Assembly: GCF_900187885.1 (NCBI RefSeq) | Contig: NZ_FYEK01000003.1 | Coordinates: forward strand, 253,977-317,976 | Length of the DNA stretch: 64,000 nucleotides | Reading direction: 5' to 3' | Source: Thermoflexus hugenholtzii JAD2 | Lineage (GTDB): Bacteria; Chloroflexota; Anaerolineae; Thermoflexales; Thermoflexaceae | In this document: positions 2,533 through 56,159 of the stretch, in pieces | Position numbering within the stretch: the stretch's first letter is position 1 | Layout of the letters: the number at the start of each line of letters is the position of its first letter | Position numbers and translations under genes: made by a program | The notes under the pieces: model-generated | What the model was told of the DNA's origin: nothing | What the model saw: the letters and a program-made list of their open reading frames with translations, nothing else | Database searches by the model: none

Positions 2533-2559
2533 CCCTCGGGATCGTTCAGGGCCCGAGGG
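2533..2559. terminator. Hairpin between convergent genes
   Basis: An 8-bp stem (CCCTCGGG 2533-2540, CCCGAGGG 2552-2559) sits at the convergent junction, overlapping the last codons of the HlyD gene. No clear T run on either side, so the terminator call is weak. Confidence 0.3.
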
Positions 2560-3781
2560 AAAGCAGGACATCGGCGGGCATCCCGGCCTTCAGCCGTCCC
2601 TCCGGGTTGGGCACCCGCACGGTCACCGGGAAGACCAACGCCTGACGCTCCTCCCGGGTCTGGACGTTGCGGGGGGTGAAGGTCGCCTCCGGTGCGATGC
2701 GGGCGATCACACCGGGGAATGTTTCGCCGGGGAAGGCATCCACCTGAACCTTCACAGGCTGGCCCACACGCAGCCGCCCCACCTGCCCCACCGGCACATA
2801 AATCGTGATCTCCAAGGGATCCACCGTGCTGAGGCTGAGGACAGGTTGTCCGGCCCCCAGGGTTTCTCCGACACGGGCCAGATGCTCGGAAACCGTCGCG
2901 GTGAAGGGCGCGGTGAGGCGTAGCCGTTCGACCTGCAAGCGCAGCAGATCCCGTCGCGCCTCGGCCAGGGCCACGGCCGCCCGGGCCGCATCCCGCTCCC
3001 ATCGCGCAGGCCCGTTCCGGGCGCGATCCAGCCGGGCCTGGGCCGCCCGGACGGCGGCCTCCGCCGCCCGGGCCTGCGCCTCCGCCGCATGGACCTGGGC
3101 CTGTAACGCGAGGGGCTGCTGGCGGATCCGAAGGAGGCCCTCCAGTCGGGCCCGGGCGGCATCCCGCTCCGCCTCCGCCGCCCGCAACGCCGCTTCCGCC
3201 GCGGCCACCTGCCGGTCGGCGATCTCCCGCTGATCAAAGGGCAGACGATCCCGCTCCGCCCGCGCCTTCTCCAGATCGGCCCGGGCCCGTTCCACTCCCT
3301 GCTCCGCCGCCGCCAGCGCCGTCCGGGCCTCCAAGATCTGGCGCTCCAGATCCTGAGGCGTCTGCAGCTGACGCAGGGCCATCCGCCAGAGCCCTTCGGC
3401 CATGGCGCGTTCCGCCTCCGCCTGGCGGACCTGCGCGGCGAGGGCAGCGAGCTGCTCCGGTGAGGCCCCCGCCTCCAGCGCGGCGAGCTCCGCCCGGGCC
3501 GCCTCCACCGCCGCCTCCGCTTCCTGGAATTGTTGCCGGAGGACCGGATCCTCCAGCTCGGCGACGATCTCTCCCGCCTCCACCGTCGTCCCCTCATCCG
3601 CCAGCCAGCGCACCGTTCCCCCTACCTCTGTCGAAAGGCGAACGCTCCGACCCGTGAGGGTGCCGGAGAACCGCATCTCTATCCCCTCGGCGCTTCGAGG
3701 GGGCCGTAGAAGAGCCCATCCTCCGATCCCCCCGATGATCCCGAGCATCAGGAGCATCTGCATTGCAGCGAAGCGGCGCAT
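2546..3781 (-). CDS. HlyD/membrane-fusion-type periplasmic adaptor of an ABC exporter
   Basis: 411 residues. The start ATG at 3781 is preceded by AAGGAGGA at 6-nt spacing, better than the upstream GTG at 3808. An N-terminal membrane anchor (MRRFAAMQMLLMLGIIGGIGG) is followed by a first biotinyl-lipoyl-like half (GTVRWLADEGTTVEAGEIVAEL), a long Ala/Glu/Arg-rich coiled coil from about residue 95 to 290, and the second lipoyl half plus beta-barrel. This is the HlyD/YbhG adaptor plan. It lies 13 nt downstream of a second adaptor gene and is the last gene of the exporter operon. The two adaptors share architecture and near-identical motifs such as TFTPRNVQ, so they probably arose by duplication. 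Confidence 0.85.
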   Translation of the reverse strand: MRRFAAMQMLLMLGIIGGIGGWALLRPPRSAEGIEMRFSGTLTGRSVRLSTEVGGTVRWLADEGTTVEAGEIVAELEDPVLRQQFQEAEAAVEAARAELAALEAGASPEQLAALAAQVRQAEAERAMAEGLWRMALRQLQTPQDLERQILEARTALAAAEQGVERARADLEKARAERDRLPFDQREIADRQVAAAEAALRAAEAERDAARARLEGLLRIRQQPLALQAQVHAAEAQARAAEAAVRAAQARLDRARNGPARWERDAARAAVALAEARRDLLRLQVERLRLTAPFTATVSEHLARVGETLGAGQPVLSLSTVDPLEITIYVPVGQVGRLRVGQPVKVQVDAFPGETFPGVIARIAPEATFTPRNVQTREERQALVFPVTVRVPNPEGRLKAGMPADVLLSLGP

Positions 3782-3794
3782 TCGGGATCCTCCT

Positions 3795-5051
3795 TCAAGG
3801 GAGCTCAACGTCCACGGGCACTCCCGGCTTCAGACGACCGTCCGGGTTCTCCAGGCGGATGCGCACCGCGAAGGTCAGGCGCGCCCGCTCCTCCGGGCTC
3901 TGGACGTTGCGCGGGGTGAAGGAGGCCTCCTCCGCGATCTGAACGATCACCCCCTCAAACCGCTCGCCCGGGAACCCCTCCACGGTCACCGGGACCTTCA
4001 TCCCGGGTCGCACCCGACCCAGCGCGGCCTCCGGGATGTAGACGACCAGCTCCAGAGTCTGGAGATCCATCAGCTGCAGCACCCGGGTCCCAGGGGCCAC
4101 CCGCTCGCCGGGCTCCACCGCCCGCAACGCCACGATCCCTCCCTGTGGAGCGAGAAGCTGGAAGCGGGCGCGGCGGGCTTTCAGGGCCTCCAGGGCCGCC
4201 TCCGCTTGCCGCAAGCGTGCCCGCGCGGCTTCCCGCTGCTCCGGCGAGGCACCCGCCCGGAGGGCCGCCTGCTGCGCCCGGGCGGCCTCCAACGCGGCCT
4301 CCGCGGCCCGATACCGCCCCTCCGCCTCCACCACCTGCGCCCGCAACGCGATCGGATCCCGGATCACCGCATCCAAGTATTCCAGGAGGGCACGGCTTCC
4401 ATCGTAGGCGGCGCCGGCCCGGTTGACCTCCGCCCAGGCGGACCAGTAAGCATAGGCCGCGTCCCGCACCTCCGCAGGCAACGGCGGACGGAGAGGTGGG
4501 GGAAGCCGCTCCCACTCCCGCATCGCCGCCTCGGCCCGGCTCTTCAACCGCTCCGCGATGTCCTTCAGGGCCACCGCCTGCTCCAGCCGCGCCTGGGCCA
4601 CCCGGACCTGCGCGGCGGCCACCTCCCGCTGGAGCAGGAGTTCCTGAGGCTCCCGGAGCATCGCCTGCGCGTCCTGCCAGGCCTGATAGGCGCCGTCCCG
4701 CAAGGCCTGGGCCTGGTCCACCCGCGCGGCCGCCTCCCGCAGATCTTCCTCCCGGGGCCCCGCCTCCAGGGCTTCCAGCGCGGCCCGGGCCTGCGCCACC
4801 TGGGCCTCGGCCATTCGGATCTGGGCCTCCAGAAAAGCCGGGTCCAGATCCACGAGAGGCTGCCCGGGCCGGACGACATCCCCTTCCTCCACCCGAACTT
4901 GAAGCACCCGACCGCCCTCCACCGCGATCACGTCGACCGTCCGCGCCTCCAGATAACCGGAGACCACCAGCGGCCGAGCGGCCCCCGGCCGGCAGGCGCT
5001 GAGCAGGACGAGCAACCCCAGCCACCATCCGAGGTGTTTGCGTTCGTTCAT
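3795..5051 (-). CDS. HlyD-type adaptor, predicted lipoprotein
   Basis: 418 residues. The start ATG at 5051 overlaps the stop of the upstream ATPase gene by ATGA (5048-5051), implying translational coupling; the frame also runs further upstream but only as a shadow of that gene. The N-terminus has a short positive stretch, a hydrophobic core and a lipobox, LLSAC, near residue 20, so it is probably lipid-anchored rather than a transmembrane protein. Lipoyl halves flank a long Ala-rich coiled coil (about 95-290), followed by the barrel with ASFTPRNVQ. In a presumed monoderm-like Chloroflexota cell a lipoprotein adaptor would span the cell wall region. It works with the two ATPases and the permease. 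Confidence 0.85.
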   Translation of the reverse strand: MNERKHLGWWLGLLVLLSACRPGAARPLVVSGYLEARTVDVIAVEGGRVLQVRVEEGDVVRPGQPLVDLDPAFLEAQIRMAEAQVAQARAALEALEAGPREEDLREAAARVDQAQALRDGAYQAWQDAQAMLREPQELLLQREVAAAQVRVAQARLEQAVALKDIAERLKSRAEAAMREWERLPPPLRPPLPAEVRDAAYAYWSAWAEVNRAGAAYDGSRALLEYLDAVIRDPIALRAQVVEAEGRYRAAEAALEAARAQQAALRAGASPEQREAARARLRQAEAALEALKARRARFQLLAPQGGIVALRAVEPGERVAPGTRVLQLMDLQTLELVVYIPEAALGRVRPGMKVPVTVEGFPGERFEGVIVQIAEEASFTPRNVQSPEERARLTFAVRIRLENPDGRLKPGVPVDVELP

Positions 5052-6019
5052 CGAAGCGCACCTCCTGACCGCGAAGGGAGTTCCGCCTCCTGCGCCGCCT
5101 GATCCACCAGCCAGAGGAACACATCCTCCAGAGAAGGCCGGATCCACTCCACGGAGATCTCCTCCAGGCCTGCCTCCTCCAGACGGCGGCGGATCTCCTC
5201 GATGGAGAGCCCCGGATCCCGGGGATAGGCGTGGATCCGGGCACCGTGGAAGGCAACGTGCTGGAAGAAGGGCCAGTCCCGCAAGAGAAGGAAAGCCCGC
5301 TCCAGCGGCGTGGCGGAGATCGCGACGATCCCCTTTGGCCCCGCCCGCTCCTTGAGCTCGAAAGGGGTTCCCTGGGCCAGCAGGCGCCCGTTGTGGATGA
5401 GCGCCAGGCGGGAGCACTGCTCCGCCTCATCCATATAATGCGTGGTGACGAAGATCGTCACCCCCCGCTCGGCCAGCTGGTAAAGCAACGCCCAGATCTC
5501 CCGGCGGGCCAGGGGGTCCATCCCCGCGGTGGGCTCGTCGAGGAACATGATCTCCGGCTCGTGGAGCAGGGCCACCGCCAGGGCCATCCGTTGCCGCCAG
5601 CCTCCCGCCAGGTGACGGACCAGACGCCGGGACTGCCCGGCCAGATCCAGCCGCTCCAGCAACATCGGGATCCGCTCCCGGAGCCGTTGGGCGGGCAATC
5701 CATAAGCGGCCCCATAAAACCGCAGCGTCTCCTCCACGGAGAGATCCGGATACAGGCTGAACCGCTGGCTCACGTAACCGATGCGCGGGCGGATCCGCGC
5801 GGTCTCCCGGGTGGCATCATGCCCGAGCACCCACGCCCGGCCCTCCGTGGGCTCCAGCAGCCCCAGCAGCATGCGGATGGTGGTGGTCTTCCCCGCCCCG
5901 TTCGGCCCCAGGAAGCCGAAGATTTCCCCCCGCCGGACCTCAAAGGAGACGTGATCCACAGCGGTGAACGCGCCGAACCGCCGGGTTAAGCCCTCCGCTC
6001 GGACCACCACCTCAGCCAC
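5048..6019 (-). CDS. ABC transporter ATP-binding protein (second ATPase of exporter)
   Basis: 323 residues. Walker A GPNGAGKTT lies near residue 39, the signature reads HLAGGWRQR (variant of LSGGQ), and Walker B is IMFLDEPTAGMD with the H-loop His in TTHYMDEAE. The C-terminal 100 residues are the usual extension of the drug-exporter (CcmA/DrrA-like) class. It overlaps the preceding ATPase gene by 8 nt and the next adaptor by 4 nt, so all are one transcription unit. With the other ATPase it probably forms a heterodimer in the YbhF/YhhJ style, where two ATPases are often fused; here they are separate genes. Confidence 0.9.
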   Translation of the reverse strand: MAEVVVRAEGLTRRFGAFTAVDHVSFEVRRGEIFGFLGPNGAGKTTTIRMLLGLLEPTEGRAWVLGHDATRETARIRPRIGYVSQRFSLYPDLSVEETLRFYGAAYGLPAQRLRERIPMLLERLDLAGQSRRLVRHLAGGWRQRMALAVALLHEPEIMFLDEPTAGMDPLARREIWALLYQLAERGVTIFVTTHYMDEAEQCSRLALIHNGRLLAQGTPFELKERAGPKGIVAISATPLERAFLLLRDWPFFQHVAFHGARIHAYPRDPGLSIEEIRRRLEEAGLEEISVEWIRPSLEDVFLWLVDQAAQEAELPSRSGGALR

Positions 6020-6941
6020 GGCCTCCCTCCCGACGCATCAGGTAGGCGAACACCTCCTCCAGACGCGGAGGGACCCAGCGGGCCTCCTGAACCTCGATCC
6101 CCGGAAGCGCCCGCAGCGCTGCGACGAGCTCGGAAAGGGCCACTCCGTCCTCCCGGACCACCGCCCGCACCCGATCCCCCAGGACCACAGCCTCCAGAAC
6201 CGCCGGATGGGCCGCCAGGGCCGCCTGGGCCCGCAGGACCGGCTGAGCGAGGATCTCGATCACCGGATGGCGGAACGAAGATCGCAGCCTCCCTGGCATG
6301 TCCACCGCCAGCATCCGCCCCTGGTGCATCAGGGCGACCCGGGTGCAGCGCTCCGCCTCATCGAGATACGGCGTGGTGACGACGATGGTCACCCCCCGCA
6401 TATGGAACTCGCTGAGCAGATCCCAGAGCTCCCGCCGCGACAGCGGGTCCACCCCCGTGGTGGGCTCGTCCAGGAGCAGCAAGCGGGGCCGGTGGACCAT
6501 CGCCCCGATCAGGGCCAGCTTCTTCTGCATGCCCCCGGAGAGCTGCGCCGCCCGGCGATCCAGGAACGGCTCCAGGCGGGCGAAGCCCAGCATCCGCCGG
6601 ATCCATTCGGGGTCCCGCGATCCATACATCGTCGCAAAGAAAGATAGGTTCTCGCGGACCGTGAGATCTCCATAGAGGCTGAAGCTCTGGGGCATGTAAC
6701 CCAGGGATCGACGGATCCGCTCGGGCTCGCGCAGCAGATCCCGCCCTAGCACCCGGATCGTCCCCGCGTCCGGCCGCAGGACCCCGGCGAGGAGACGCAG
6801 CAGCGTGGTCTTCCCCGCCCCGTCCGGCCCAATGATCCCGAAGATCTCTCCGTCCTCCACCACGAACGAGAGATCCCGGAGGGCATGCACCGCCCCGAAT
6901 CGTTTCTCCAGATGTTCGACCCACACCGCTTCGCCAGCCAT
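6012..6941 (-). CDS. ABC transporter ATP-binding protein (first ATPase of exporter)
   Basis: 309 residues. Walker A is GPDGAGKTT (Asp replaces the common Asn), signature LSGGMQKK, Walker B LLLLDEPTTGVD, and the switch region VVTTPYLDEAERC has Pro-Tyr where the second ATPase has the H-loop His-Tyr. The missing H-loop His suggests this half-site is degenerate and that ATP hydrolysis may depend on the partner ATPase. Gene order and overlaps put it in the exporter operon downstream of the permease gene at 7040. Confidence 0.9.
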   Translation of the reverse strand: MAGEAVWVEHLEKRFGAVHALRDLSFVVEDGEIFGIIGPDGAGKTTLLRLLAGVLRPDAGTIRVLGRDLLREPERIRRSLGYMPQSFSLYGDLTVRENLSFFATMYGSRDPEWIRRMLGFARLEPFLDRRAAQLSGGMQKKLALIGAMVHRPRLLLLDEPTTGVDPLSRRELWDLLSEFHMRGVTIVVTTPYLDEAERCTRVALMHQGRMLAVDMPGRLRSSFRHPVIEILAQPVLRAQAALAAHPAVLEAVVLGDRVRAVVREDGVALSELVAALRALPGIEVQEARWVPPRLEEVFAYLMRREGGRG

Positions 6942-6970: not shown

Positions 6971-7043
6971 CTGTGAGAGGGGCTTTCGCCCCGAACCCTT
7001 CGTCTCCGATGACGCAGGGGGTCGCGGCGGAAGCCGCTCCTAC
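6971..7043. repeat. Paired inverted REP-like palindromes (BIME-like)
   Basis: A unit in plus orientation (6971-6997, hairpin GGGG-CTTTCG-CCCC) faces a unit in minus orientation (7016-7043, hairpin GCGGC-GGAA-GCCGC). The shared consensus is roughly TAGGAG, GC-rich palindrome, then GAACC or GACCC. The minus unit starts at the stop codon of the permease gene. Similar units occur at 14149-14219, 16561-16729 and 50998-51063. Confidence 0.7.
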
Positions 7044-8173
7044 TCCAGCCGCTTCCGGAAGCGGCGGGCCGCCAGGCCCATGGCCGCTACCCCGAACAGG
7101 AGGAGCGCAACAGTCTCATCCCACAACGGCTCGATGCCTACCCCTTTCACGATGATGCTGCGCAGGATCACCAGCATGTAGCGGAGAGGGATCAGATAAC
7201 TGATCCACTGAAGGACCTGAGGCATCGCTTGAATGGGAAAGAGAAGGCCGGCCAGGAAAATGGAAGGCAGGAGGAGGAAATAGGTCAGCAACATCGCCTC
7301 CCGCTGCGTGGAGGCCACCGTGGAGATCAGCAGCCCCAGCCCCAGGGAGGAAAGCAAGAACAACCCGGAGAGGGCCAGGAGCAGGCCCAGGTTCCCCCGG
7401 AAGGGCACCCGGAACCAGAGGGCCCCCAGGGTCAGGATGATGGCGAAATCGATGTAGGCGATCAGGACGTAAGGGGCCACCTTCCCCACCACCAGCTCGA
7501 CCGGCCGGATGGGCGTGACGATGAGCTGCTCCATCGTCCCCTGCTCCCGTTCCCGGACGATGGCCTGGGCCGTGAGGAGCATGGTGAGGAACTGAAGGAT
7601 GGCACCGATCAGGCCCGGGATCATATAGTTGGCGCTGCGCATCTCCGGGTTATACCAGACCCGGGGACGTGGATCCAGGCCGGGCATCCGCCGGGGATCC
7701 AGGTTCAGCGTCCGCCGGAGGATCTGCGTGGAGTGGTTCTGGGCGATGGAGAGGGCCGCCGCGTAGGCATTGCTGGCCACCGCGGGGTCGCTGCCGTCGA
7801 TGATCAGCCCCACCGTGGCCAGGCGGCCGGCCAGGACATCCGCCCCGTATCCCTTCGGGATCAGCAGGGCCGCCTGGGCGATCCCTGCATCCAGCAGCCG
7901 CGCCAGATCCTCCTGTCGCTCCACATAGCCGATGATGCGAAAGACATCCACCGCCCGATAGGTGTCCACCAGCTCCTGGCTCTGGGGAGTGCGATCCCAG
8001 TCCAGGACCACCATGGGCACGTGCTTCACATCGGTGGTCGCCGCATAGCCCAGCAGGAAGAGCTGGACCACGGGGATCATGAACATCACCGCCAGGGTGC
8101 GGGGATCCCGCACGATGTGCAACACTTCTTTGTAGATCACCGCCCCGATGCGCTGGAACATCCCAGCCTTCAT
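7040..8173 (-). CDS. ABC-2 type exporter permease
   Basis: About 377 residues with the ABC-2 membrane plan: one N-terminal transmembrane helix (MFMIPVVQLFLLGYAA), a roughly 150-residue extracytoplasmic domain, then five helices at the C-terminus. The sequence REREQGTMEQLIVTP just after TM2 is the family hallmark. It resembles YhhJ/YbhS/YbhR permeases that export drugs, cations or lipids. The start is uncertain: ATG 8173, ATG 8161 (AAGG upstream) and GTG 8191 are possible. Only one permease gene is present although the related systems often have two, so it probably acts as a homodimer. A REP pair separates it from the ATPases. Confidence 0.85.
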   Translation of the reverse strand: MKAGMFQRIGAVIYKEVLHIVRDPRTLAVMFMIPVVQLFLLGYAATTDVKHVPMVVLDWDRTPQSQELVDTYRAVDVFRIIGYVERQEDLARLLDAGIAQAALLIPKGYGADVLAGRLATVGLIIDGSDPAVASNAYAAALSIAQNHSTQILRRTLNLDPRRMPGLDPRPRVWYNPEMRSANYMIPGLIGAILQFLTMLLTAQAIVREREQGTMEQLIVTPIRPVELVVGKVAPYVLIAYIDFAIILTLGALWFRVPFRGNLGLLLALSGLFLLSSLGLGLLISTVASTQREAMLLTYFLLLPSIFLAGLLFPIQAMPQVLQWISYLIPLRYMLVILRSIIVKGVGIEPLWDETVALLLFGVAAMGLAARRFRKRLE

Positions 8174-8231
8174 CTCCCGAAGGAGGATCACACCCAGCAG
8201 AGGCGTAGCGGCGCGGCACCCATGCTGTTGG

Positions 8232-8927
8232 TCAAGTTGGGGGCGAAAAATTTTTCGCCTCTCCTCCCGCCGAGCCTTCCCCGGCCTCTGGGTTCAGGAT
8301 CCCATGCAGATACACCTCCAGGGCCTCCATGAACAGCTGGCGGGCCGGCACCGGGGATCGGAGACGCAGCAAATGGCTCAGGAGAGCCTGCGAGAGGAAA
8401 AGGCCCATGAAGAGACGGGCGCTGATCCGCGGGTCCAGCGGACGCACCCTCCCTTTGGCCTGCTGCGCGGTCAAATAAGCCGTGATGGCCTCCAGGCCCG
8501 GGCGGATCGCCCGATTGACGAAGATCCGTCGGATCCGGCCGTTGCGGATCGCCTCGGGCAACAACAACCGCAGCGCCGCCATCCTCGCTGGATCCTCATA
8601 CAGGGAGAGCCCGATCCGCATCACCTCGGCGAGGAACTCCCGAGGCGGGGCCCCCCGCATCTCCCGGGCCATGCGCCGCAGGGGGAGGATGAAAGACTTG
8701 GCCTCCACCACCGCCTGGAAAAGATCCTCCTTGTTCCGGAAATACCAGTAGATCAGGCCCGGTGAGATCCCGGCCTCCCGGGCGATCTCCCGGTTCGAGG
8801 TCCCCCGGAAGCCCTTGCGAAGGAAAACCCGGAAGGCAGCCTCGATGATCCGCTGACGCATGGCCTCCCGGTCTCGGCTCCGGCGACGATCAGATCCCTG
8901 ACCCATCCCCTCCCCCGTTGAATTCAT
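8232..8927 (-). CDS. TetR-family transcriptional regulator of the efflux operon
   Basis: About 231 residues from ATG 8927; ATG 8906, which has GGGGGAGGGG directly before it, is an equally good start (224 residues). The HTH is visible as RIIEAAFRVFLRKGF, then REIAREAGISPGLIYWYFRNKEDLF, close to the TetR consensus. The C-terminal domain is alpha-helical and ligand-binding. The gene is immediately upstream of and codirectional with the permease gene, and a perfect 22-bp palindrome lies just before it. Autoregulation and control of the exporter in response to a toxic ligand are inferred. Confidence 0.85.
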   Translation of the reverse strand: MNSTGEGMGQGSDRRRSRDREAMRQRIIEAAFRVFLRKGFRGTSNREIAREAGISPGLIYWYFRNKEDLFQAVVEAKSFILPLRRMAREMRGAPPREFLAEVMRIGLSLYEDPARMAALRLLLPEAIRNGRIRRIFVNRAIRPGLEAITAYLTAQQAKGRVRPLDPRISARLFMGLFLSQALLSHLLRLRSPVPARQLFMEALEVYLHGILNPEAGEGSAGGEAKNFSPPT

Positions 8928-8985
8928 GAGTGAGCTCAGGCCGGAGACAGCTCGTGGGCCCTCCAGGCTCCTCAGGATGTTCAAA

Positions 8986-9007
8986 ATTGATTGATCGATC
9001 AATCAAT
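8986..9007. promoter_or_regulatory. Perfect 22-bp palindrome, putative TetR operator
   Basis: The sequence is ATTGATTGATC followed by its exact reverse complement, with no spacer. It lies about 60-80 nt upstream of the TetR start, in an AT-rich island within GC-rich surroundings. Size and position fit a TetR-family operator. It also contains tandem TTGA/TCAA steps, so nested half-sites may allow two dimers to bind. Confidence 0.75.
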
Positions 9008-9064
9008 ATAGTAACCCATATCGAGCCTTGGGTCAAGAAGCCCCCCAGGTATGGGAAAAGGAAG

Positions 9065-9098
9065 GGGCCGGGAGGGCATCCGGGGTTCCTCCCGGCCC
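9065..9098 (-). terminator. Intrinsic terminator of the sigma/anti-sigma operon
   Basis: A perfect 11-bp stem (GGGCCGGGAGG 9065-9075, CCTCCCGGCCC 9088-9098) is followed on the minus strand by CTTCCTTTTCCC. It lies 25 nt after the end of the anti-sigma gene. Confidence 0.7.
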
Positions 9099-9122
9099 TC
9101 GAACGAAGGCCTTGCCTCGAGG

Positions 9123-9638
9123 TCAGCAATCTCCGCCGGGCTTCCCCCACCGCCCCAGGATGTCCAGAACCGGACGGGCCTCGTCGGATCCGGACGGCGT
9201 ATAGGAGGAAAGCCCGGCGAGCCCGATGAGAACCATCATCCCCCAGCGGGCCGCTGGGAGGCGGCTTAGCCCCTGAAGCAACCCGCCCGCTTCAAGGAAG
9301 AGGGGATATAGCTTATGGACCCATACCGGGATGGCCAGAAGGAACTCCCTCCATGCCAGCGCGAGCCCCAAGCCGATCAGGAGGAAGAGCAAGAAAGCCC
9401 CCCGGCTTTCCCATGCGGCGACCCGCCGGATCCGTCGCATCACCCGCAGGGAGAGGTCAGGAGGAGGAGGCGCTGGGGGAGCCGCTCGAAGCCAGGCGTC
9501 GGCCATGCGGGCAGCCTCCCACAGGGTCTGACAGGCCGGGCAGAGCATCCGATGAGCCTCCCACTCCCGGGCCTCAGAGCCCGTGAGCCCACCCTCCAAG
9601 AGATCGATCATCCGCTCGCGAAACCGGTCACAGGTCAT
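9123..9638 (-). CDS. Zinc-finger anti-sigma factor, membrane-anchored
   Basis: 171 residues. The N-terminal motif has Cys3 and HRMLCPAC, i.e. the H-x3-C-x2-C arrangement of ZAS anti-sigma domains, which bind zinc and clamp the cognate ECF sigma. Hydrophobic segments follow (FLLFLLIGLGLALAW and MMVLIGLAGLSSY), so the protein is probably anchored in the membrane with a short outer tail. It overlaps the sigma gene by 11 nt, the usual coupling for these pairs. The signal that releases sigma is unknown. Confidence 0.85.
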   Translation of the reverse strand: MTCDRFRERMIDLLEGGLTGSEAREWEAHRMLCPACQTLWEAARMADAWLRAAPPAPPPPDLSLRVMRRIRRVAAWESRGAFLLFLLIGLGLALAWREFLLAIPVWVHKLYPLFLEAGGLLQGLSRLPAARWGMMVLIGLAGLSSYTPSGSDEARPVLDILGRWGKPGGDC

Positions 9639-10242
9639 GGCCTCCTCCGGATGCAGACGGATCCCTTCCGTTCAGAGCACCGGCGAGGAGATGGGGTTTG
9701 AGCAGCTCGGCCAAGCGGAGGCGGGCCCGATGGAGACGAACGCGGACGGTCCCCGGCTGCAGGCCCAGGATGGAAGCGATCTCCTCGCACGAGCGCTCAT
9801 GCCAGTAATACAGGATCAGGACGGCGCGTTCCTCCGGTTTCAGCTGGCCCAGGGCCTCCCGCAGGCATGCCTCCTGCTCCTGACGTTCCACCAGCGCGTC
9901 CGGTCGGGCTTCCTCTGGCGTCTGGGGCTCCGGGTGCACGTCCTCGAGAGGGAGAACGGGACGCCGGGCGCGAATCCGGTCGATGCAGTAGTGGGCCGCG
10001 ATCGACAGGATCCAGGAGGCAGGCCGGTGCGCCGGATCATACGCATGGAGCCGGCGATAAATCCGGAGGAAGACCTCCTGGGTGGCATCCTCGGCTTCGT
10101 GGGGATCCCCCAGCATGCGATAGCACAGGTTGTAGATGGGGCGGGTGTAGGCGGCCACCAGCCGCTCAAAGGCGTTCAGATCCCCATTGCGAGCAGCCAG
10201 GATCCAGTCTCGTTCGCCCTCCGACGAGCCCTGGACGCCCAT
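9628..10242 (-). CDS. ECF-type RNA polymerase sigma factor
   Basis: 204 residues with region 2 (AFERLVAAYTRPIYNLCYRM, then EDATQEVFLRIYRRL) and region 4 (LKPEERAVLILYYWHERSCEEIASILGLQPGTVRVRLHRAR). The last forms the HTH that reads the -35 element. No region 3 is present, so it belongs to the extracytoplasmic-function group (RpoE/SigW-like). Start ATG 10242 has GGGGGAGGG immediately upstream. It is co-transcribed with the anti-sigma gene. Confidence 0.9.
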   Translation of the reverse strand: MGVQGSSEGERDWILAARNGDLNAFERLVAAYTRPIYNLCYRMLGDPHEAEDATQEVFLRIYRRLHAYDPAHRPASWILSIAAHYCIDRIRARRPVLPLEDVHPEPQTPEEARPDALVERQEQEACLREALGQLKPEERAVLILYYWHERSCEEIASILGLQPGTVRVRLHRARLRLAELLKPHLLAGALNGRDPSASGGGHDL

Positions 10243-10322
10243 CCCTCCCCCTCGCTTTGGCTTTCGACCCCATCTTCCTCTACGAGGAAGAGCGTTCTCC
10301 AGTTACAGGTCGCGCCGGACGA

Positions 10323-10348
10323 TGTAGGGCAACTGCTCGCAGTTGCCC
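10323..10348. repeat. 26-nt palindromic element, copy 1
   Basis: TGTA followed by GGGCAACTGC-TC-GCAGTTGCCC. The same element, differing at the centre (GC for TC), is found at 21611-21636. Both are intergenic, which suggests a dispersed repeat family. Confidence 0.65.
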
Positions 10349-10368
10349 CGGAAGGGAAGAGCCCAGGG

Positions 10369-21610: not shown

Positions 21611-21636
21611 TGTAGGGCAACTGCGCGCAGTTGCCC
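21611..21636. repeat. 26-nt palindromic element, copy 2
   Basis: TGTA followed by GGGCAACTGCG and its exact reverse complement (22-bp perfect palindrome 21615-21636). It matches the element at 10323-10348. Its 3' end (TTGCCC 21631-21636) is positioned as a possible -35 for the promoter at 21655. Confidence 0.65.
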
Positions 21637-56133: not shown

Positions 56134-56159
56134 AGCCGGGACCACGCGTGGTCCCGGCT
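56134..56159 (-). terminator. Intrinsic terminator of the F0 operon
   Basis: Perfect 26-nt palindrome (AGCCGGGACCACG and its reverse complement), 27 nt after the end of atpFH. On the minus strand it is followed by TCTTCGTCTTTTCGCTTAA. Confidence 0.85.

Follow-up and report, generated by a model that had tools for sequence, protein, structure and literature searches.

The window, as we term the whole 64-kb stretch of DNA analyzed here, carries a six-gene ABC-exporter operon whose first gene is a tetR gene, and about 80 bp upstream of that gene lies a 22-bp perfect palindrome (Table 1). The likely start of tetR is the ATG at 8906, which yields protein P0001; a similar MG stands at the aligned place in five Thermoflexus relatives (G004, G006, G001, G005 and G008). 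P0001 matches the TetR_N helix-turn-helix profile (PF00440, 70.1 bits against a cut-off of 24), and its C-terminal part, all-helical in the structure model, matches the ligand-binding domain TetR_C_7 (49.6 bits against 22). The model has a mean pLDDT of 81.8, with residues 209-224 below 50, and the 50 PDB matches listed for it read as TetR-family or unnamed regulators. Directly upstream of the tetR promoter, at 9123-10242, are genes for an ECF sigma factor and a weakly zinc-finger-like candidate anti-sigma factor; among the nine genomes of the genus, close homologs of the sigma factor (64-71%) were found in G001, G005 and G008 only.

Table 1. Features of the tetR-exporter locus, in window coordinates.
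Feature	Position	Strand	Basis
-35 box TTGACC of the tetR-operon promoter	9031..9036	-	sigma-70-like promoter search
-10 box TACTAT, 17-bp spacer to the -35 box	9008..9013	-	sigma-70-like promoter search
22-bp perfect palindrome (the reported feature)	8986..9007	none	self-complementarity, single copy
Conserved 20-bp operator core TTGATTGATCGATCAATCAA, form TGA-N-TGA-N4-TCA-N-TCA	8987..9006	none	ortholog comparison
Offset dyad 1, TTGA-N8-TCAA, centre 8994.5	8987..9002	none	candidate one-dimer site, putative assignment
Offset dyad 2, TTGA-N8-TCAA, centre 8998.5	8991..9006	none	candidate second-dimer site, putative assignment
TetR/AcrR-family repressor, 224 aa (TetR_N + TetR_C_7), most likely autorepressor	8232..8906	-	domain profiles, orthologs
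ABC-2 type exporter permease	7040..8191	-	domain profiles, conserved order
ABC exporter ATPase 1	6012..6941	-	domain profiles, conserved order
ABC exporter ATPase 2	5048..6019	-	domain profiles, conserved order
HlyD-family adaptor 1; start set by orthologs, listed ORF extends to 5417	3795..5051	-	
HlyD-like adaptor 2; the L095 stretch is matched by both adaptors 1 and 2	2546..3808	-	

The palindrome, ATTGATTGATCGATCAATCAAT, is its own reverse complement with no spacer between the arms, as the first-pass annotation had described it. The internal TTGA periodicity, the nested symmetric sites and the AT-rich patch noted at the same time are also present. The 20-bp core matches itself at 14 of 16 positions under a 4-bp shift, additional dyads centred at 8994.5 and 8998.5 (8 of 9 pairs each) flank the exact dyad at 8996.5, and the GC content of 30-bp intervals starting between 8971 and 9001 is 23-37%, against 66% overall. 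Allowing up to 3 mismatches, the palindrome is the sole match in the window (none in 100 shuffles) and is single-copy in the whole assembly of 3,216,964 bases, which is 97.7% complete. The genome-wide search that had been proposed thus returns one place only, beside the repressor gene, and neither here nor in the phylum scan described below did we find many copies unconnected with regulators.

The palindrome is beyond chance expectation. A Markov model of the window gave a mean of 0.043 perfect palindromes of at least 22 bp per 64 kb in 300 simulations, and none of these simulations held one with at least 16 A or T. The AT-rich patch lifts the local odds somewhat, yet when the local 60 bp were shuffled base by base 200,000 times, just 2 shuffles held a perfect palindrome of at least 22 bp. 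On the strength of the shuffles, the simulations, the single copy and the conservation we reject a chance palindrome. The wider reading that the sequence is either a chance palindrome or the end of a mobile element has a negligible probability, given its single copy, its fixed place at the promoter in the genus and its position upstream of regulators or exporters elsewhere in the phylum. Of the earlier description as "unusually perfect", the exactness stands, but the length is shared with two other perfect palindromes of at least 22 bp in the window, both GC-rich (21615-21636 and 56134-56159), and the perfect symmetry is not kept in the orthologs.

A search of positions 8700-9300 found a single sigma-70-like promoter, TTGACC-17-TACTAT, where 0.1 would be expected from shuffles. 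The operator core begins 1 bp downstream of its -10 box on the minus strand, and from that box the transcription start is predicted at about 9001, so the core covers the predicted start point. In an alignment of nine promoters, columns without variation were confined to the -35 box, at its TTGA, and to the operator, which contributes twelve. A self-complementary sequence at the start of a transcript might also act as an RNA hairpin or terminator; a 9-bp stem can form (-7.5 kcal/mol, z -2.4), and 5 of 200 shuffles were as good. This role is nevertheless highly improbable, as the stem is AT-rich, its pairing is broken in divergent orthologs, and no terminator-like site was found in 8700-9300. 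Because the site straddles the predicted start, such a hairpin would not be wholly transcribed.

Repressor, site and operon occur in the same order in eight of the nine genomes of the genus, namely our own and seven relatives; in the comparison of operon order, L061 and L032 belong to one contig of G001, and L033 is a contig of G006. The TetR orthologs of the seven relatives are 57-82% identical to P0001, with 79-98% identity in the helix-turn-helix and 53-79% in the rest of the protein. The pattern TTGATTGNNNNATCAATCAA is found beside tetR without mismatch in our genome, G005, G001 and G008, with one mismatch in G006 and G007, and with two in G003 and G004. The G004 site carries the same change on both arms (TTAATTGATC/GATCAATTAA). 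A site also precedes a 48%-identical repressor gene on a contig labelled Bacillota (L034). Among 18 half-sites compared, positions 1, 2, 4 and 7 are invariant. In the nine sites compared, the number of paired positions ranges from 6 to 10 out of 10; exact symmetry is therefore not the conserved property.

The ninth genome, G002, has no tetR ortholog (best E value 4e-4) and no site beside one, but the absence is weak evidence because that assembly is 87% complete and lies in 580 contigs. Its best match to the degenerate pattern has 2 mismatches, and the same word occurs in G005 on a contig other than that of tetR. In the G005 assembly about 420 bp separate the aligned tetR start from the upstream site, and 168 consecutive N stand in this interval. 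The tetR frame of G007 is interrupted (C142, L065, 580-1218; 117 aa to the first stop), and is either a pseudogene or an assembly error.

Comparison with G004 shows that the tetR region is set off from its surroundings. The tetR genes share 83.6% DNA identity, against 97.4% for the neighboring permease, 96.5% for ABC1 and 94.8% for orf10369, and a block from about 8190 to 10364 has about 82-85% identity in a background of roughly 96%. The low-identity stretch between about 8.2 kb and the site covers tetR and the operator and borders the sigma/anti-sigma pair. That pair is absent from the same place in G004 and G006, and in G008 is located after carB and orf10369. It is possible that tetR and its operator were replaced together by recombination in one lineage, in either direction. 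However, tetR also falls below its neighbors in the other two pairings (84.1% against 89-91% between our genome and G006, and 83.0% against 90-93% between G004 and G006), so rapid change of tetR itself accounts for at least some of the divergence.

We searched 400 genomes of the phylum for the core TTGATTGRYYRATCAATCAA, which was found at 12 places in 10 genomes, whereas a reversed control gave none. Outside our own genome, each of the 11 places is followed downstream by either a tetR relative or a gene for an exporter. Six of these (L087-L092) adjoin a TetR relative, 33-39% identical. In L087-L089 the tetR gene is followed by a gene with an exporter-like start; that of L089 has a weak match to MacB_PCD, below the curated cut-off, and a Pfam scan of that of L087 gave no match. 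In L092 an MFS gene lies upstream of tetR on the same strand. Four further places (L084, L085, L086 and L093) precede a gene for an FtsX-type permease. The Pfam FtsX domain was confirmed for L084 and L086, and the gene of L085 and L093 was assigned by its near-identical start; these two sites share the gene and stand about 560 and 150 bp, respectively, upstream of the start listed for it. The remaining place, L094, precedes a gene for an ABC-2 permease 55% identical to our own, in an operon that includes HlyD and two ABC genes (L095).

At five of the 11 places no tblastn match to P0001 was found within the 2.4-3.0 kb fetched, and regulation there would therefore have to be in trans. For L094 such control is suggested by the genome in which it occurs, G401, where another contig carries a relative of the repressor together with a site of its own (L090, L096). 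Within our own genome, the looser form TGA-N-TGA-N4-TCA-N-TCA at two mismatches was found at 9 places compared to 6 in the control, which is hardly above background. A TGAGTGA-type site of the same layout, with 1 mismatch, occurs at G000:C27:276957-276974 (L069), about 30 bp upstream of the gene for a paralogous TetR (G000:C27:276345-276926).

The same layout recurs upstream of other Chloroflexota TetR genes of the same class. Our census covered the 22 of 30 fetched loci that lie outside the genus (L010-L031), the other eight being our own and its seven relatives. Ten of the 22 upstream regions carry TGA-N-TGA-N4-TCA-N-TCA with at most 2 mismatches, nine of them exactly, whereas the form turned up in 0.8% of regions after shuffling and in 1 of 107 further intervals of the same loci; in the remaining 12 the site was not found at this threshold. 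A sigma-70-like promoter is close by in nine of the ten. Eight of the ten have TGAATGA-, TGAGTGA- or similar letters and go with a different recognition helix.

This agreement between operator letters and recognition helix centers on the position of residue 51, a leucine within the motif LIYxYF. Leucine occupies it in all 17 repressors examined beside TTGATTG-type sites, or 8 of 8 (L087-L092, L011 and L014) when the genus and L034 are excluded. The 8 repressors next to TGAATGA/TGAGTGA-like sites and the 12 with no site all lack it. For the comparison of 8 against 8 the Fisher p value is 1.6e-4, although six of the loci were found by pattern and chosen by tblastn match to P0001, so the comparison favors similar helices. 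L087 and L088 are near duplicates from one genus, and omission of L088 (7 against 8) leaves the same p. L087-L092 carry a single additional residue in the turn that leads into the recognition helix, gapped out in the tblastn alignment; L035-L037, which match P0001 over the helix-turn-helix only, were left out.

We consider it an even chance that these observations reflect a Chloroflexota-wide lineage of exporter repressors, with an LIYxYF helix and, in the three members scanned, TetR_C_7. Such repressors would recognize the shared word TTGATTG-N6-CAATCAA with two dimers offset by 4 bp and govern ABC-2, FtsX/MacB-like and perhaps MFS exporters both in cis and in trans, and leucine as opposed to threonine, serine or alanine at one helix position would track the letter that separates the two TGA elements of the operator. 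If so, this would amount to a simple specificity code that keeps co-resident TetR repressors apart. The agreement lends itself to a direct test of how paralogous TetR repressors are kept from acting on one another's operators.

The first-pass annotation had read the palindrome as the likely master operator of the efflux operon. The proposal gains support from the position at the promoter, the conservation in eight of nine genus genomes, the double change in G004, the surroundings of all 11 phylum places and the agreement with the helix. The palindromic site stands at the repressor gene's own promoter and almost certainly serves as operator for the TetR-type repressor whose gene follows immediately downstream. 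The predicted repressor would bind the core and cover the predicted start just after the -10 box, and would thereby block RNA polymerase at the promoter that precedes tetR and the ABC exporter genes. With the start covered, both its own gene and the pump would be switched off, until a substrate or stress ligand in the C-terminal domain released the repressor. We estimate a probability of roughly 0.94 for this explanation as a whole, autorepression and pump control at this site, in which binding, repression and ligand release are inferred from the family. That a different regulator, either another TetR paralog or an unrelated factor, reads the operator and controls the operon is improbable. The genome does encode three further TetR relatives of P0001 (four matches including P0001 itself), one of them near the TGAGTGA-type site at G000:C27:276957, but the single TTGATTG palindrome of the assembly adjoins the gene for P0001, the site accompanies that repressor across the genus, and the recognition helix fits the operator type.

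Several characterized systems resemble this one in part. In Escherichia coli, a TetR-family gene, cecR (ybiH), heads the ABC exporter operon ybhGFSR with an HlyD-type adaptor, two ATPase domains and two membrane subunits, as described in an excerpt of PMC7190983. The gene order differs, however, and the operon here has two adaptors and two separate ATPases. A putative near-palindrome read from the sequence upstream of E. coli cecR, CTTAATCAA-ATGA-TTGATTAAG, has its elements arranged differently. P0001 is not CecR itself, as it scores 19.8 bits against NCBIfam NF008587, for which the cut-off is 365. QacR, CprB, DarR and the FadR of Sulfolobus acidocaldarius bind symmetric or semi-symmetric sites as two dimers, and for DarR and S. 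acidocaldarius FadR these sites are also at the regulator's own promoter, according to excerpts of PMC4150764, PMC10636190 and PMC6449355. Their operators are unlike the core here in sequence, and DarR differs further in that its two dimers are in mutual contact and the second of its sites is only half-matched.

The TetR-type FadR of Bacillus is a fold relative of P0001 (3whb_A at rank 3 and 5gpc_A at rank 29 of the structural matches). Its operator, TGAATGAATANTCATTCA, has the layout TGA-N-TGA-N4-TCA-N-TCA, as does the core here. P0001 nevertheless scores below the NCBIfam model for Bacillus FadR (NF053878, 42.5 bits against a cut-off of 200), and the genes downstream of the repressor here are pump genes rather than fatty-acid genes.

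The nested symmetry raises the question of how many dimers the operator would hold. The core contains four TTGA/TCAA elements, which could seat two dimers on overlapping TTGA-N8-TCAA sites with centers 4 bp apart, and it has two overlapping dyads within one operator, as in the QacR and CprB type. Only about 0.1% of random perfect palindromes (113 of 100,000) have at least 7 of 8 pairs at a +2 offset. The earlier suggestion that nested symmetry accommodates two dimers is plausible, and the sequence comparisons lend it mixed support. On balance we lean towards two dimers on the offset dyads; that a single dimer occupies the exact dyad at 8996.5, with the TTGA repeat merely widening the contact surface, seems the less probable arrangement but a serious one. 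In keeping with a single dimer, pairing at the central dyad equals or exceeds that of both offset dyads in five of eight genus and L034 sites (those of our genome, G004, G006, G001 and G008), and it is the best in all seven TGAATGA/TGAGTGA-type sites compared; this comparison left out G005, whose core is the same as our own, and L022. Against it, the three most divergent sites (G003, G007 and L034) favor an offset dyad, with 7, 7 and 6 of 8 pairs against 4, 6 and 5.

Spacing also bears on the choice. At 3.4 A per bp, the elements of the offset dyads are 12 bp (about 41 A) apart, and those of the central pairs 8 or 16 bp (27 or 54 A). The recognition helices are 37 and 38.2 A apart in QacR and CprB, which bind as dimers of dimers, and 31-32 A apart in TetR and SimR, as given in an excerpt of PMC4150764. 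The former values come nearer to the 12-bp spacing of the offset dyads than to either central spacing, which argues for two dimers, and the latter fall between the 8- and 12-bp spacings.

An exact-letter literature search, in which few subscription journals are covered, found neither the 20-mer core nor six related palindromes. Among the matches listed, titles on TetR with TGAATGA and TCATTCA, or with TTGATTGA, look unrelated; those on the TetR family or FadR operators do not contain the word TGAATGAATA; and none for Thermoflexus and TetR is about this site or a pump regulator. The kind of system is well known, a well-conserved TetR operator with an ordinary type of switch; what is modestly new is the operator word, its phylum-wide use and the agreement with the helix. 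The locus pairs a pump regulator of Thermoflexus, a hot-spring bacterium, with its probable operator confidently enough to be tested directly, and the word allows its regulon to be traced across the Chloroflexota.

The window also holds the two GC-rich palindromes mentioned above. The one at 56134-56159, AGCCGGGACCACGCGTGGTCCCGGCT, is perfect over 26 bp and is perhaps a terminator stem. The other has the form GGGCAACTGC-NN-GCAGTTGCCC and occurs twice in the window, at 10327-10348 as well as 21615-21636, with TGTA preceding both copies. With at most 2 mismatches it is found at 20 places in the genome, compared to none for the reversed control, and several copies carry matching changes on both arms (GGACAACTGC..GCAGTTGTCC). 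This dispersed palindrome looks like a REP- or MITE-like repeat.
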